In this document: in pieces, positions 1 through 9,401 of the stretch
How the letters are laid out: each line of letters opens with the position of its first letter
Position numbering within the stretch: the first letter of the stretch is position 1
From: Globomyces pollinis-pini
Lineage: Eukaryota > Chytridiomycota > Chytridiomycetes > Rhizophydiales > Globomycetaceae
Direction of reading: 5' to 3'
Length of the DNA stretch: 10,350 nt
Assembly: GCA_025399215.1 (NCBI GenBank)
Contig: MU621558.1
Coordinates: 1 to 10,350 of the forward strand
Notes under the pieces: model-generated
The model's database searches: none
The model's input: only the letters and a program-made list of their open reading frames with translations
Told to the model about the DNA's origin: nothing
Position numbers and translations under genes: made by a program

Positions 1-898
1 TATATGGACAATGCTTATCCTTGGAGAAATGTGGATTTGGTTTTCCATCAAGATAAGTGGCAATAATATTGGAATGGTCACCAAGTTTTACGATGGAGGA
101 GTGTTTACCAGCCTTTAAAATGAACTTGAGCTATTTTACCTTATGAGGACATCCAGAATTTTGATATGGACAATCATGCAATTTTTCCGGGTTGGATTTC
201 ATTTTGTCAAAGTACTTGCACTTTCCGGCCAATGGGCATTTTTCAGTATTCCAGTCCAGTGTGAGAGAATCTTTCTTCTCATCATTAGAAGAATAATAAG
301 GGCAGTTAGAAATTGGACAATCTTTCGATTTGGAGTTGAAATGTGGGCATGAAGTGCCTTTATATGGGCACTGGCCTTTCTCTTGAGTTTTCTGAATTCA
401 TTAACAAAAAATATTACTAAAAATGGACATTCAGAAGCGTCTCCGTCCATATCATGTTTGATATCTTTTTGAAAGTGAGGACAAGTTTTCAATAGTGGAC
501 AGTGTGTCAGTTTTGATGGATCTGATTTAGCTTTTGAATAATACGGGCAGCCTTTTGCAAGTGGACACTCTGATTTCCCCCAATCGTAATCTTTCTTGAT
601 GCCATTTTTGATATCAGTGTAAAATGAACATTTTCCTTTTAGGGGGCAATGATCAGTTGATTTGAACAGATTAACATAATCCTTATCATTTTGGTGCTTC
701 AAATAATAAGGGCAGTTTCCAGTTTTTAATGGACAAGGTTTCTGTTGATCCTAAAGTATCAGAAAAGAAAAGCGATACTTGATCAAATGAGTTTGGATCG
801 ATATTATAATTGTGATAGAAAGGACAGATACCGGCTACCGGACAGTCCTTTATAGTAGCCTTCACAAAGATCAGGAATAGTGAAATCAAATGAATCAT
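1..898 (-). CDS. Secreted Cys-Pro repeat protein, 3' end beyond window
   Basis: I do not recognise this family. It reads on the minus strand from ATG at 898 and runs off the left edge; 272 residues are visible after removing three short phase-0 introns (751-778, 28 nt; 392-417, 26 nt; 113-139, 27 nt). Each intron is GT-AG and restores the same sequence style across a frame break. Residues 1-16 are a hydrophobic signal-like segment, so export is inferred. The remainder has 20 cysteines, 18 of them followed by proline, mostly in pairs of the form CP-x(3-5)-CP-[YFH]. A longer unit recurs from residues 19, 102 and 203: CPxAxxCxY, then a KSxPxKL-like stretch, then CPxxxxCPH. Two of these copies are preceded by DW (96-97 and 197-198). 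Paired cysteines suggest metal or heme binding or disulfides; none is proven. The gene is divergent from the Nur1-like gene, 164 bp away. Confidence 0.72.
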
Positions 899-2387: not shown

Positions 2388-4286
2388 CTAATTCGGTTTA
2401 TCTGGATATTCTTCATGAAATTCAACAATAGCATCTTGTGCTTCATTAGGTAGATACTTGGCAGCAATCCATTCTTCACTTCCACCGTCAAATTTCACAT
2501 AATATTGTAGAACTTTGTTTTTTCCAAAGTATCGAGAATCAGTGATTTTATATGGTTCCACTTCTTCATCCGAACTCTCTTCTTTTCTCGACGATTTAGA
2601 CTTTCGTCTGTCATTTTCATAAAATTCAGCAATGAGAAGAGGTGCATTGATCGATGCTGCAGGCTCCCATGAATCATCTGCCGCTGAATACCCTCTCCAA
2701 CGAATTTTGAACTGCAATCCTTGTTTGGTAGTTCTGGTGTCTAAAATTTTCTCCACCACATATACTTCGGTTTCTGCGCTGCTACTATTTGATTTCTCTT
2801 TAATGGTACTGGATTTCTTTGCCTTTTTCGTTTGTTTCTGTGGAACAACCTTGGTTTTGACTGGTGGGCTACTGGTGGTTCTTCTAGTAACCCGTGGAGA
2901 TAATGGCTTTGGAGATAGTTCTCTTATGGCTCTTTTTTTGGGTAACACTTTACTTGCAGAGTTACTAGGTTTTGACTTTACAAGGATTGGCTCCTCCTTT
3001 GGTGTAACACCTTTTGGTCTCATCATTCTGTCGCCTGATGGTTTATCAGGGTAGCTACGGTGAAAAATATTTACTAAACGCGAGGCGGAAGTAGTGTCGC
3101 TAGCAGGAATCCATGTGCAATCGTCACGACTATATCCTTTCCATAAAATCATATATTCAAGGCCATTGACTTTTGAAAGTCTTGAATCCAGAATACTTTC
3201 AATTTCGAATTGCTCATCGTCATCTTCTCCAGATTCTTCTTCTTTAGACTTTTCCGCTTCAGAATCTTCTTTAGTTTCATGAACAGGTGTCCCAATGATA
3301 TCATCATGAGTATCGATATTGTCATCACTATCGTCAACTTCAACAGGTAAATCAAGAATCATATTATCAATTTCATCATTGATATCATCGTCAAGATCGA
3401 AAAAATCTTTCACATCTGCTCTTTTCTTACGAGACACCGTCGTTGGAGCCGCTGGAGCTGGACGTGGTCGCTTCACAGGGGAAAGTGGTCTTTTTAAAGG
3501 TGACTTTGAATTTCGGGTTTGTCGAGTACTTCTTGTGGTCGCAGCAGGTTTAGTTAATTCATCTTCCTCATACCCTTCGGCATGACCTCGTTTACCAGAG
3601 GTACTTCTCCTAGTCTTCATTTGAGGAGGACCAGAAGGTTTCCCTGGATATGCATTATGAAATGCATTCAACAGGAAGTCGGCATCCACTACAGATTCTT
3701 TCGGAATCCATGATCGATCCTTATAAGGATATCCTTTCCACAAGACACAATATTCAAGTCCCTTAGATTTCGTATATTTTGAATCAATGATATCTTCAAT
3801 TTCGTATTCTTTTGACTTTTTAGGTGATGAATGTACTGGCTCGGTAGGTTTGTTTGGATTTTTCTTGTGAAATGCTTTAATTAAAAACGGACATCCTTTT
3901 AACTCTCGTTTAAACAGCCATGATCGATCATTATAACCGTGACCTTTCCACAATACACAGTATTCCAGACCATTGTTTTTGGTATAACGAGAATCAATGA
4001 TATCCTCAATTTCCCAAACTTCATCATCTTCGTCCTCTGATTTTTCAGCATTATTTTCTTTAACTGCTCTTCTTTTTGGAGATGTAACTACTGGTTCTAT
4101 CGGAGGCCCAGATACAGCATTTGGATGCTCTACGTGAAATAAAGTAACCATATCTTTAGCTTCTTTCAGATTGTCAACACTTATCCACGTTCTGTCAGCC
4201 CAACTATATCCTTTCCACAGTACACAGTATTCCAATCCATCCGCTTTTGTATATCTTGAGTCCACAACTGCTTCGATTTCATACAA
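2388..4286 (-). repeat. Intronless block of six chromodomain repeats
   Basis: This is most of the final exon of the LRR/chromodomain gene. It carries chromodomains 5-10 without introns. Repeats 5, 6 and 7 are the closest to one another, sharing DSRYTK or DSKYTK followed by GLEYCVLWKG, so they are the youngest copies by eye. Repeat 9 is the most HP1-like (VYVVEKILDTR and DDSWEP). Repeat 10 is the most degenerate and ends the protein with YPDKPN. The intron found before the FHE codon in repeats 1-4 is absent in all six. Confidence 0.8.
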
Positions 4287-7209
4287 AGTATTACTATCAT
4301 CCTTTTTGACTTTTCGCTTCTTCAGAGGAGACGTTCTCGGTTTAGCAACCTTTTTAGCAGAGTCAACGTCCTTCTCTAATGTTTCAAACGCTTTGAAAAA
4401 TCAAATAATAGAGAACTTACAAACACGATTTCTTTTTGCGGGCGATCTCAATTCCTCTGACGTTTCTATTCGTCGTTTATTTGCTGGTGCTTGCTTGGGT
4501 CGAGGTGAGATTATAACAACAGAGTTTCTATCTGGCTTCTCTGGATATTTTTCATGAAACTAGCATAAACAAAATAGTCGATTTACCTTGGCTTTAGCTT
4601 CTTCGGTAATTCGTAAGCTCTTAGAATTTTCCCACGTGGAATAGTCAGCAGGGTAACCTTCCCATTGAATTAGGTACTCCAGTTTGTCACCGTTCAATGA
4701 AACGCGGGAGTTCAGAATAGTTTCTACTATTTTTCCTTTTGGGACCCGTTTAGCAACTGTACTAGTTTCCGATTTTTCCGGATGATCTTTATGAAACTAT
4801 CTGTTAAATAAAAACCACCATTACTTGCTCAATCAAATCCTTAGCTTTGTCCAATTTTTTCACATTCTCCCAAGTTGCTTTATCAGCTGACAGCCCTTCC
4901 CACTCCACCAGATATTTCCTATGTACTTTATTTTTCGTTGGTCTGAAATCCAATATTTTAACAGGCTTAAGTGTTTCAGCAGGAGATTTTTGTTTTGGTT
5001 TACGCTCAAACCTGTCTGGATGCTCTTTCTTATACTACAAAAAATGAATTTTGAAATTTCCAAATACATTTTCAATTAACTTGGCTCCATTTGATACATT
5101 CTTTGCCAATTCCCAAGTTGCTTCTTCTTCAGTTTGACCTTCCCAGTGAACCAAAAACTTACTATGGTTTTTATTACGGGCAACATGACAATCCAAAATT
5201 GCCAAGGGTTGACGATCGGTCTTTTTTTGAGTTTTGACCAACATTCCTGGATTAGGTTTATCAGGATTCTTCTCATGAAACTAAAAACGAAGTTAACCAT
5301 TAACCAATAACTTACCTCATCAATCAACATTTGAGAATTTTCCAAAAATTCATAATTTTGCCATGTAGCATCTTCAATAGGATACCCGTCCCATTTAATC
5401 AAATACTCGAGCTTTCGTTTATTTTTTGAAATTCTAGAATTCAAAATGTCCTCAATTTCATATTCTTGATCACTAACTTCATCTTGTCCTTCTATTTTCG
5501 CAACATCACGCAATAGCTTTTGACATCTTGTAAGTAGACTCCAAGCTGTTACATCATGCAACTCTGCCTTGATGTATTGATAATTTTCTTCATTGATACA
5601 ACCATGAATTAAAGTTAATCTTTCAGATTCATTAAACTAAATATTAAAAGTAATTGACCAATTTACATATTCAATATCGTTTGATTTATCTAATAGCAGG
5701 TATTGAGCAGTCAATTCAACTGCTGGCTTTCCGATTTGTGGAATTAATTTGATCAATGGAGGTACAGACTGGAAAAATGTACTAGCCTTCTCATTTCTTT
5801 TTTCGTTGAATTCCACGTTATCGACCAAAGTTACATCTGGATGTAAATCGGTCTTTTCAAGAAATCCATTGTATTTCAGTTGTTCCAAACAACCTTTAAT
5901 ACCATCTTCATTGATATCATTTCCTTCAGCAATATATAGCTCCATTAATGTTCGGTTCTTTTTCAAAAAGGAACAGAGCACTTCGGCACCAAAATTGGAA
6001 ATACTATTGTTTGTCAAACGAATTTGCCGAAGTGATGGGTTTTGTTCAAGAGCTTTGGCCAATAAGGTAATTCCAACATCAGTTATCTTGTTGTCTAATA
6101 GGTTAATAGTTTCTATTACTATTTAGATTCAAAGACAGTAGGGTAGTGTTGGTATGTAAAAACTGTACTAATGAAATAATACCATCATCGGAAATATCAT
6201 TGTTTGCAATTGATATTGATACAAGAAATTCATTGTTTTTCAACCCTACCATGTGAGGAGAAACAAATATACCTTCCAAGAGAAAAGAAAATCCATCATC
6301 TGTAATTGTATTGCTGTCCAAGTCCAATTCCTCTAATGTTGACTTTTCATCAATCAAAAATTTAAGTGCTCGGACACCTTCATCATCCACAATACTCTGT
6401 GCAAGAGACAGATGAACCAGGTAAGGATGCTGCCTTAATTTGGTCGATAAGAGCCGAATGGCCTTATTTGGGATGTCATCGGATTTTAAAAAGAATGATT
6501 CCATTGTGGAATTGATTAATCCAGGACTAAGTACATCAATCATATTTCTGGAAATATGAGGGGATGAAATTCCAAGACTAGATAATGGTAAAACTTTCAG
6601 TGTATCGCGTAATCCCAATAGTCCTTGTTCAGTGAAAGTGACGTTCATCAATACCAACTCATTCAAATGCTCAGGAATGGAGGTACTAATAAACTGATTC
6701 ACTTCCATATCTGATATGATTAACTTTTTGTTTTCAAATGGTATCACTCCCCATGGTGGAAGAATTACCTCTGAAGATGATAAGTCATCTACTCCAACTA
6801 CTTCAGAATCTTCACTGAGTTTTGATTCAGATATTGTGGCATCTTCATTATTGATACTAGATTCAGCCGGATTCGAATCTTCATTGTTGGAAATCTGTTC
6901 AGTTTCAGACATACTTGAATCCGGATTGTTATCAGCATTCTCCTTCTGGACCTGGTCGGAACCTTCAAGTTCAGGCGAATCACTTTCTGGGAGTAAAACA
7001 AACCCTTCGCCAATGGAAGAAGTTCCAGTTTCTTCAAGAAATTTATCAATGGTGGAGTCCTCATTCGTTTGTGCAGAATCAATTAGAGACTCCGTATTAA
7101 CGAGATCTGAATCCAAAGTGTCAGTATATGAATTCTTACCTTCCATCACAATATCTGACGTGGGATCTACGATATCCGTAGTGTCGGATTGTTCGTTGAA
7201 AAATTCCAT
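2388..7209 (-). CDS. LRR protein fused to ten chromodomain-like repeats
   Basis: One nine-exon gene encoding 1528 residues after removing introns 6246-6272, 6095-6119, 5637-5666, 5281-5315, 5035-5067, 4797-4824, 4560-4586 and 4391-4420 (27, 25, 30, 35, 33, 28, 27, 30 nt). A TGA directly precedes the ATG at 7209. Residues 1-150 are acidic and Ser-rich; about 182-430 are RanGAP/RNase-inhibitor-type LRRs. A helical linker leads to chromodomains ending near 612, 683, 753 and 825, then six more near 897-953, 986-1041, 1056-1111, 1255-1311, 1403-1456 and 1470-1528. Basic linkers contain likely nuclear signals (PLKKRKVKK near 884-892; PLKRPLSPVKRPRP near 1159-1172) alternating with acidic tracts. 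Expected role: nuclear multivalent reader of methylated histones, with the LRR as a protein-binding platform. That role is inference; the domains are direct. The chromodomain part has no in-frame ATG before its first domain, supporting one gene. Confidence 0.82.
4587..5280 (-). repeat. Exon-sized chromodomain repeats with equivalent introns
   Basis: Exons 5068-5280, 4825-5034 and 4587-4796 are 213, 210 and 210 nt (71, 70 and 70 codons). Each starts at the codon for the F or Y of the FHEKxP-like tail of one chromodomain and ends just before the same codon of the next. All flanking introns are phase 0. One exon is therefore one repeat unit, which is direct structural evidence of tandem exon duplication. 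The nucleotide sequences have diverged considerably, so the duplications are not recent. Confidence 0.8.
6246..6272 (-). other. In-frame 27-nt intron inside LRR coding sequence
   Basis: The segment begins GTATAT and ends GGTAG, is 27 nt long, and contains no stop, so it can be read straight through. Removing it turns an odd insertion between LLEG and NNEF into GLKNNEFLVSISIANN, the expected LRR sequence following FSFLLE. The LRR period is restored only if it is spliced, and its length matches the other introns of the gene. Confidence 0.75.
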
Positions 7210-7345: not shown

Positions 7346-8074
7346 CTAATCACGGTACTTCAAATCTCTGGTGGTTCTGTACTGATAGGCAATTCCAACT
7401 CCAGTAAAGACTACTACTCCAGCCAGCATTAAGAGCACTGCTGTCGGCTGGTATTGAATCTCCCCAACACTGGTGGTACCTGTTAATAATCCTTTCACAG
7501 TAGCTCTAAATCCAGTCTTCAAAAAGTAGTCCAATCCGAAAAATAATGCATATGATCCAATCAGAGATGTCCCACCAATCAAACTCGGTTTTTCAAAGAT
7601 GTTCACCAACACAGCACCTGCAATACCAAATACGATAATAAAGATCAGTCGAGCTACGTCATTTTCAATTAAACCATTCTCTTTGACTCCCAAAATCATC
7701 ATGGCTACAGTCATACCTCCCAAGAAACCTGCAAGAGATATACCAAACTTCCATATAGTGCGAGAGAGAATTCCACCAAGAATACCTATAGCAAAGGGCA
7801 CTAATAGGAGTATCCAAGTTCTTTGACCATATCCACCAGCTGGTTCATACCTGAGAAGTAAGCCGTAAGATAGATTGGAGAAGAAGAAGAAACCAAGTAT
7901 GAATAAAGTAGCTCTAAACACTTTCAATCCAGAGAATATCAACAGAGCACCAATCAAAATGGACAGAATAGCGAATATGAAATCCCAAGGACCATTGGAA
8001 TAACCCCCTTTGTCACCATCAATTTCGACTGCCAATGCAAAAGCTGAAGAGCATAACCCAATTAATTTGAACAT
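7346..8074 (-). CDS. DUF4203/TMEM198-like seven-helix membrane protein
   Basis: A single-exon gene of 242 residues from ATG at 8074 to TAG at 7346. Residues 1-15 form a signal-like hydrophobic segment. After a short lumenal or extracellular stretch there are seven hydrophobic helices, at about 31-50, 55-75, 86-104, 109-130, 141-160, 164-184 and 210-231, and a basic C-terminal tail with RTTRDLKYRD. Glycine-rich helix packing motifs (GILGG, AGFLGG) and the LRYEPAGGY loop near 74-82 fit the TM7S3/TM198-like DUF4203 family found in fungi and animals. Its function in fungi is not established; vertebrate TMEM198 is linked to Wnt signalling, which should not be transferred here. The stop lies 136 bp upstream of the LRR/chromodomain start on the same strand, so they are neighbours with separate promoters. 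Confidence 0.75.
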   Translation of the reverse strand: MFKLIGLCSSAFALAVEIDGDKGGYSNGPWDFIFAILSILIGALLIFSGLKVFRATLFILGFFFFSNLSYGLLLRYEPAGGYGQRTWILLLVPFAIGILGGILSRTIWKFGISLAGFLGGMTVAMMILGVKENGLIENDVARLIFIIVFGIAGAVLVNIFEKPSLIGGTSLIGSYALFFGLDYFLKTGFRATVKGLLTGTTSVGEIQYQPTAVLLMLAGVVVFTGVGIAYQYRTTRDLKYRD

Positions 8075-8110: not shown

Positions 8111-8394
8111 GTGCTATGGCGGTACCAAGAGGGGTAGGAAAGGCTTAGCAAATCCTTTAAGTGCTTAATGGAACAATCCTGCAACCAATTTAGTAAAAGA
8201 CTTAATCCAATCCATTGCACAAGACCAGCAATTAATATCCCATTGCTCATAATATTTTTTTTATTGTTCAAAACCTGATAATCTACATTTTAAGGTCTCA
8301 TCTTGAACCTGATCACATTTTCACACGTTTCATTGACTTTGACTCATGATTCCTTCCACTAATAAAGGAGACTTCAACATCAATTTCAACCTCT
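8111..8394. other. No gene seen; upstream region of DUF4203 gene
   Basis: I find no supported gene here. A minus-strand open stretch of about 60 codons overlaps the DUF4203 start, but its composition and lack of any recognisable motif do not support coding. The right edge grades into the decayed leucine-rich-repeat gene. Confidence 0.4.
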
Positions 8395-8700
8395 TGTCAA
8401 TCCTTGAGTTGATAGAGAGAGAGTTGAGATGTATCAAAAGAACTAAGTGTTCTAAGTCCGCTCAGTTGTTATATATCAACTATTTGATTCGAATCAAGTC
8501 AAAGTTCATAAAGATTAACCAAAAATGACAATGGGGATACATCAGAGATTTGATTCTTATCCAGACACAGGTCTTCAAGCCCGACCAAGGGGATATATCA
8601 ATTATTCGATTCTCATATATATTAAGGTCTTCAAGTTTGATCAAGGTCGATAATGGAGACTTATACAACGTATCACTGATATGGTTGTTTCATAAACATT
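8395..8700 (-). pseudogene. Decayed SDS22-like leucine-rich-repeat gene
   Basis: Minus-strand pieces read as 22-residue LRR units of the SDS22/internalin type: NNHISD, then SPLSTLIKLEDLNIYENRII, then LEDLCLDKNQISDVSPLS, then LYEL-LDSNQIVDI, then LSGLRTL. Two successive units start 66 nt apart (8579 and 8513), exactly one repeat. The preceding spacing is 56 nt (a 10-nt deletion, hence a frameshift) and the following one is 57 nt. In-frame stops interrupt at least three units. No single frame runs through, and the defects are not flanked by GT-AG sites, so introns do not explain them. It is unrelated in LRR class to the RanGAP-type repeats of the large gene. Confidence 0.65.
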
Positions 8701-9221: not shown

Positions 9222-9401
9222 TTGTTCTTATTACAGCGTTTAATGATAAACCTTTGAATGAAGTGTTAGTGCATGATGAATTTAACCGTGTAATGACTGA
9301 AATTTAACCGTGTAAATGACTGATTGGCATTACACGGTTAAATTCATCATGCACTAACACTTCATTCAAAGGTTTATCATTAAACGCTGTAATAAGAACA
9401 A
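9222..9401. repeat. Perfect 74-bp inverted repeat with 32-bp spacer
   Basis: Bases 9222-9295 and 9328-9401 are exact reverse complements, separated by 9296-9327. The left arm is the coding side: it continues the plus-strand frame as ITAFNDKPLNEVLV. The right arm is therefore the inverted copy. Perfect identity implies a recent event or an assembly or amplification artefact. Confidence 0.95.
9279..9323 (+). repeat. Tandem direct repeat at hairpin apex
   Basis: AATTTAACCGTGTAATGACTGA (9279-9300) is followed immediately by the same sequence with one extra A (9301-9323). The first copy straddles the inner end of the left inverted-repeat arm. The inverted arm repeats part of it again on the other strand, so the motif is present three times around the apex. 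Confidence 0.9.

Follow-up and report, generated by a model that had tools for sequence, protein, structure and literature searches.

The complete 10,350-bp contig MU621558.1 of Globomyces pollinis-pini, a chytrid fungus of the Rhizophydiales, was analyzed and is called the window here. A JGI genome of the species has been described from strain Arg68 (PMC11797018), and this contig may come from that strain. It contains a complete coding gene on the minus strand at positions 2388–7209 that encodes a protein of 1528 residues in nine exons. The predicted protein consists of an acidic N terminus, about eight ribonuclease inhibitor–type leucine-rich repeats (LRRs), a linker, and ten chromodomains. 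Splicing the nine exons reproduced both the coordinates and the length given in the original prediction made from this sequence. A gene-model script using a codon table from other genes agrees except within the LRR part and the last few codons. The eight introns have GT-AG ends, and their lengths in the 5′ to 3′ direction of the gene are 27, 25, 30, 35, 33, 28, 27, and 30 nucleotides (nt). Candidate in-frame ATG starts lie at residues 1, 22, 100, 168, and 188.

The first intron (27 nt, 6246–6272) lacks an in-frame stop, and its removal restores the 28-residue LRR period; the second (25 nt, 6095–6119) also lies within the LRRs. The third (30 nt, phase 0, 5637–5666) ends in an in-frame TAG and is the junction between the LRR and chromodomain halves. 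These three introns are also in the public model of the locus. Splicing placed a 35-nt phase-0 intron in chromodomain 1 just before FHEKNPDKP (5281–5315), phase-0 introns of 33, 28, and 27 nt in chromodomains 2 (5035–5067), 3 (4797–4824), and 4 (4560–4586), and a 30-nt phase-1 intron that separates chromodomains 4 and 5 (4391–4420). The public model, BC833DRAFT_328221 (519 residues), was rebuilt letter for letter from the window with a start at 6754, introns at 6747–6711, 6272–6246, 6119–6095, and 5666–5637, and a stop at 5076. It starts inside the gene, its 6747–6711 intron is an extra one of 37 nt, and it stops early because the 35-nt intron at 5315–5281 is read through. As a result, the model covers the LRRs and the linker but just one chromodomain and is without the other nine. 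The LRRs and the first chromodomain are already joined in the public annotation.

The original prediction held that two apparent genes become one when the junction intron is spliced. The intron was recovered as a 30-nt, phase-0, GT-AG intron that closes with the stop of the LRR frame. The absence of an ATG ahead of the first repeat was likewise borne out: the chromodomain frame has no ATG between 5900 and 5331, and the sole one among those listed from 5900 to 5317 sits at 5330, where chromodomain 1 is almost complete. The last 150 nt upstream of the junction intron are open with a coding log-odds of 10.3. The first 150 nt of exon 4 have no stops and a log-odds of 5.2, compared to −20.3 and −33.6 for the two remaining frames of the minus strand. 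Around the junction these other frames score −20 to −34, and coding-like codon use is found in one frame only. The real spliced continuation is 118 codons, with 107 in exon 4 and the rest running on into the next intron. Dinucleotide shuffles of the sequence downstream of the junction, with introns of 24–39 nt allowed, gave a spliced continuation of at least 105 codons in none of 3000 trials (three reached 60, and the longest was 73), a result that controls for chance and says nothing on transcription.

The gene-model script joined the LRR and chromodomain halves through the same 30-nt intron. It erred within the LRRs, where it made a 70-nt join (6182–6113) and missed the 27-nt intron. The script predicted 61 introns at eight other loci: 28 were 24–35 nt, two were shorter, and 31 were 39–129 nt, some of which are probably false joins between genes. 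All four introns predicted in an eEF3-like gene of the same genome, identified by eye, are 28–32 nt. The junction intron in the public model is itself a prediction from the same DNA. The one-frame coding signal, the intron size, the script, and the public model back the union of the two apparent genes, and on these sequence data one gene is better supported than two.

Whole-protein Pfam scans were run on a 1,537-residue model that retains the 27-nt LRR intron. The Chromo family (PF00385) was detected with E = 4.7e-104 in nine stretches, and a six-frame Pfam search of the genome placed nine Chromo matches on this contig that pass the cut-off and correspond to repeats 1–9. The tenth repeat was recognized by alignment only. 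The ten chromodomain-like repeats first described from the sequence were thus found again, with nine scoring in Pfam and the tenth degenerate. Residues of the methyl-lysine cage were assigned in the alignment from what we take to be the HP1 positions. The three aromatic cage residues are complete in five of the ten domains: chromodomain 1 (residues 553–613, 5254–5471, Y/W/Y), chromodomain 5 (residues 895–954, 4113–4292, Y/W/Y), chromodomain 7 (residues 1054–1113, 3636–3815, Y/W/Y), chromodomain 8 (residues 1253–1312, 3039–3218, F/W/Y), and chromodomain 9 (residues 1402–1459, 2598–2771, Y/W/Y). The cage is incomplete in chromodomain 2 (residues 626–684, 5008–5217, R/W/Q), chromodomain 3 (residues 696–754, 4770–4974, L/W/L), chromodomain 4 (residues 764–824, 4533–4742, K/W/Y), and chromodomain 6 (residues 984–1043, 3846–4025, W/W/H), and it is lost in repeat 10 (residues 1470–1527, 2394–2567, V/F/G). 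The structure predicted for chromodomain 7 has a mean predicted local distance difference test (pLDDT) score of 93.8. Three Foldseek matches to it pass E = 0.001, namely CDY1, Rhino, and 2dnt (human, named CDYL), and the next matches include MPP8, Chp1, and Swi6. The matched CDY1, Rhino, MPP8, and Chp1 structures are chromodomains solved with histone H3 trimethylated at lysine 9 (H3K9me3).

The N-terminal 150 residues (6760–7209) contain 40 Asp or Glu and 4 Lys or Arg for a net charge of −36. The LRR region (residues 238–437, 5847–6498) is split by the 27- and 25-nt introns and comprises about eight β-α repeats identified by Pfam (LRR_6, E = 5.2e-14), the structure model, and Foldseek. The repeats have a period of 28 residues. 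The linker between the LRRs and chromodomain 1 (residues 438–552, 5472–5846) was delimited by splicing, contains the junction intron, and has no confident fold in the structure model. In the predicted structure of BC833DRAFT_328221, the LRR block has pLDDT values of 68–96, and nearly all of the linker and chromodomain 1 is below 50. The RanGAP-type label originally given to the LRRs is better replaced by ribonuclease inhibitor type. Among proteins of known structure, the LRRs match ribonuclease inhibitor, NOD2/NLRP, and LRR proteins of the axoneme. RanGAP does not appear among the matches listed (32 of 32; the best 60 of 112; and the best 50 of 980 from Foldseek). The Foldseek matches of the LRR part, among the best 50 of 980, are led by three DRC5/TCTE1 chains followed by NLRP14, NOD2, designed LRRs, and ribonuclease inhibitor. 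NOD2 and ribonuclease inhibitor are foremost among the best 60 of 112 sequence matches of BC833DRAFT_328221.

The relationship to DRC5 was compared with that of a 207-residue LRR frame on contig C151 (contigs of this genome are given as C and a number). The C151 frame scores better than BC833DRAFT_328221 against bovine TCTE1 (3e-21 versus 2.1e-18) and human DRC5 (1.4e-18 versus 1.3e-17), and BC833DRAFT_328221 scores better against Chlamydomonas DRC5 (2.5e-23 versus 5.5e-14). These comparisons are mixed, and the LRR half is therefore treated as a generic ribonuclease inhibitor–type LRR. Separately, LRR frames on C43 and C100 extend past their LRRs into a region that is alike by eye and possibly a family of its own.

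The array domains are pairwise 15–58% identical in protein sequence, and their DNA repeats are 61–79% alike; because of this divergence the array is not a recent tandem expansion. Introns 4–7 cut chromodomains 1–4 at the same alignment column and in the same phase (0). The cuts precede residues 605, 676, 746, and 816, the F-H or Y-K pair that opens the last nine residues of each domain, and the exons between these four introns are 213, 210, and 210 nt. Because the introns share column and phase, the part of the array spanning chromodomains 1–4 probably grew by duplication of an intron-flanked module. Chromodomains 5–10 all lie in one intronless exon of 2,003 nt, and chromodomains 5–8 cluster in a phylogenetic tree (support 0.950). 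The phase of the junction intron (0) would make the fusion compatible with exon shuffling.

Protein searches were performed against a set of 5.8 billion sequences, in which about 8,000 candidates sharing the most words were scored each time within length limits. These searches returned no other protein with both the LRR and Chromo families (one gave 4 hits and another gave 10, among which BC833DRAFT_328221 alone had both). A literature search found no account of an LRR–chromodomain combination or of four or more chromodomains. The originally noted unfamiliarity of this combination stands within the protein and literature searches made. The individual domains are known, and the combination of LRRs with ten chromodomains appears to be a new architecture. 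Known from one contig, it is better regarded as a strong curiosity than as an established system.

Known proteins share parts of this architecture. HP1, Swi6, CDY, and MPP8 readers have the same chromodomain profile and fold, and their three-aromatic cage is present in five of the ten array domains. Readers of this type have one chromodomain each, compared to ten chromodomains and an N-terminal LRR in the chytrid protein. A Chromo_shadow match in the Pfam scan scored 16.1 bits against a cut-off of 22.4 and overlaps chromodomain 9, below the level expected of the C-terminal chromoshadow domain of an HP1 protein. CHD remodellers and cpSRP43 resemble the chytrid protein in having more than one chromodomain per chain, with two or three in these proteins and ten here, and the Pfam scan detected neither the SNF2 or helicase families of the former nor the ankyrin family of the latter. 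Ribonuclease inhibitor, NLR, and DRC5 LRR proteins have 28-residue β-α LRRs in common with the chytrid protein, and we know of none in which such LRRs are joined to chromodomains.

The genome was searched in six frames with only the best candidates scored, and the counts are lower bounds. At least 24 Chromo matches were found. Nine are in the array gene, and 14 of the 15 others are over the cut-off. Thirteen of these 15 were inspected by eye (all except those on C412 and C165) and contained no second chromodomain array, with one or two chromodomains each. By eye they include CHD-type genes on C155 (twice) and C100, eEF3-like genes on C90 and C43, two small separate chromodomain genes on C266, and one domain apiece on C253, C97, C48, C377, C36, and C73. 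The family of the chromodomain frames on C266 (21381–21512 and 23166–23315), C377, and C48 is not evident. Two of three chromoshadow matches are over the cut-off; they are on C97 and C73, and a chromodomain match lies near each of them. Chromo, Pre-SET, and SET domains occur together in another gene model of this genome, a layout that we take to be that of the Clr4/SUV39 family. These sequences indicate that H3K9 methylation machinery is likely present. A search for the E(z) CXC domain as an indicator of the Polycomb mark found no match in the genome, and none in the control genomes either, so this negative carries no weight.

The origin of the array chromodomains was approached by a search with the junction protein. 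P0016 (E = 3.6e-8) was the sole chromodomain protein returned besides BC833DRAFT_328221, in a search limited to proteins of about 464–1,475 residues that favors retrotransposon proteins over small host readers. P0016 is an integrase with a C-terminal chromodomain, and it matches Ty3 Pol in the PDB. A tree and a motif comparison were made with the 10 array domains, P0016, eight chromodomains from the genome, and two solved chromodomains (CBX5 and CDYL). The HP1-like chromodomain on C97 and the one on C73 were entered as partial pieces, and the set was drawn up without the CHD-type (C155 twice, C100), eEF3-like (C90, C43), C412, and C165 domains. The array and P0016 are split from the 10 other chromodomains with a local support of 0.971. 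Nine of the 10 array domains and P0016 (which ends in FHEQNPDKP) carry the motif [FY][HYK]xx[HNYD]P, and none of the 10 other chromodomains does. P0016, with a sequence close to the array, carries a single chromodomain behind its integrase, whereas the Pfam scan found no integrase, reverse transcriptase, or other polymerase domain in the 1,537-residue model, as a chromovirus polyprotein would have. A search for chromovirus relatives in viral contigs gave one stretch that fitted a search pattern, and none was confirmed. One report includes Chromo domains, which are not exclusively transposon-derived, among fungal host–transposon fusion candidates (PMC10799480), and another describes binding of methylated H3K9 by the chromodomain of the MAGGY retrotransposon (PMC3350952). 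The sequence relationships make domestication of a retrotransposon chromodomain plausible.

We propose that the gene encodes a multivalent heterochromatin scaffold and methyl-histone reader, in which an LRR horseshoe is tethered to ten chromodomains that were perhaps founded by a chromovirus integrase chromodomain. Sequence and structure models lead us to rate this proposal at about an even chance. The protein would be nuclear, and the LRR horseshoe would provide a partner-binding surface on a string of chromodomains. Single chromodomains bind methylated H3 tails weakly. The caged domains (1, 5, 7, 8, and 9) would each bind H3K9- or H3K27-methylated tails in this weak manner, and the five together would make an avid contact that may hold and bridge several nucleosomes. 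Those domains that lack the complete cage could be spacers or make other contacts. The LRRs and the acidic N terminus may bring a partner to methylated chromatin. Less surely, a Ty3/Gypsy (chromovirus) integrase, or something closely related to it, may have supplied the founding chromodomain, which then multiplied within the host gene. A fuller scenario is rather unlikely as a whole: a chromovirus integrase chromodomain would have entered a host LRR gene, multiplied tenfold in part through the intron-flanked exon module, and become a multivalent reader that bridges H3K9-methylated nucleosomes and perhaps silences or outcompetes its source elements.

Several observations weigh against the reader proposal and its retrotransposon component. 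Five of the ten domains (2, 3, 4, 6, and 10) lack the full cage. The first rank of the axonemal DRC5 chains in the Foldseek search with the LRR part fits a flagellar, not a nuclear, protein. No fusion orthologue was returned although the database includes a second annotated Globomyces (JEL0801), and the gene may have arisen very recently, evolve fast, or be wrongly annotated elsewhere. The retrotransposon link consists of one element, which was itself found through similarity to the query, and of 60-residue alignments. Several inner branches of the tree are weak, with supports down to 0.067 (0.067 to 0.971 over the tree). Three integrase matches were found in the genome (two over the cut-off; C221, C82, and C286), and none is on a contig with a chromodomain match. 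Chromodomain 9 has its highest score with CBX5. Finally, a fungal protein of another kind shares the kind of ending seen in the array. PDB 7r76, deposited as DNA repair protein Rad8 and presumably the Cryptococcus DNA methyltransferase DNMT5, ends its chromodomain in FYRKNPGKP and aligns to residues 1–62 of the 64 given for chromodomain 1. This 2,348-residue chain has one chromodomain match compared to ten in the chytrid protein; its ending was read by eye, and it was not in the tree.

The last two points also favor a different source, a host-type chromodomain (derived, for example, from DNMT5 or HP1) that was duplicated within the host gene with no retrotransposon involved. Chromodomain 1 scores P0016 (155) nearly as high as its best sister in the array (160), and the terminal motif was present in none of the eight other host chromodomains tested from the same genome, which argue against such a source. 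We regard a host-type origin as a serious possibility, somewhat short of an even one. It concerns origin only and is compatible with the reader function, so the likelihoods given to the various readings do not sum to one.

The array could instead be a structural or protein-binding scaffold in a single gene rather than a methyl-histone reader. The chromodomains of cpSRP43 bind non-histone peptides, and they match chromodomain 1 (best 1.7e-5). The incomplete cages and the wide spread of identity among the domains are also consistent with a non-reader role. However, all three aromatic positions are kept in five domains, and the fold matches of chromodomain 7 include readers solved with H3K9me3. 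A pure scaffold is judged rather unlikely.

Two same-strand neighbors, one encoding an LRR protein that stops with the TAG at 5637–5639 and a separate downstream one encoding the chromodomain array, are very unlikely. The LRR frame does stop at 5637 if unspliced, and the genome holds LRR reading frames and other chromodomain genes apart from each other. Against two genes, the start of exon 4 codes in a single frame that offers no ATG until 5330, and the junction intron resembles the other introns in size and ends and is spliced in the public model. It is just as improbable that the gene is lineage-specific and decaying or not expressed, or that a short contig was misassembled into a chimera. 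In favor of this reading, the window makes up an entire contig of 10.35 kb (number 453 of 459), an inverted repeat and the broken remains of an LRR gene lie near the gene, and the protein searches gave no orthologue. Against it, the 1,528 codons stay open in one frame after splicing, the introns are GT-AG, codon use is coding-like where tested, and a chimera would need to land exactly at a splice-compatible place.

The rest of the window contains further features. A neighboring membrane-protein gene (PF13886) at 7346–8074 has four matches beyond the window, all from Globomyces (three G. pollinis-pini and one Globomyces sp. JEL0801). Positions 8360–8700 on the minus strand give a decayed LRR-like reading with stops, apparently a relic of an LRR type unlike that of the fused gene. 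At 9222–9401, two 74-nt arms form a perfect inverted repeat around a 32-nt spacer, which could have been left by a mobile element or have arisen as a fold-back in the assembly. A cysteine-rich repeat protein with recurring C-P units is encoded at 199–702 (minus strand) with no Pfam family over the cut-off. At the contig end, 9893–10348 (minus strand) holds a fragment with an ATPase-like LLIDEYDAF and weak Pfam hits, none over the cut-off.

To our knowledge, the number of chromodomains in chromatin readers is one to three, and their avidity comes from dimers or from tandems made by engineering. With ten domains occurring naturally in a single chain, the chytrid protein would allow a test of how multivalency governs the strength of heterochromatin binding and its reach, and it is a possible source of reagents that detect methylated chromatin. 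The intron pattern may be read as a record of how part of the array expanded. The possible retrotransposon affinity of the chromodomains makes the gene a candidate case of an early-diverging fungus having domesticated a targeting domain.

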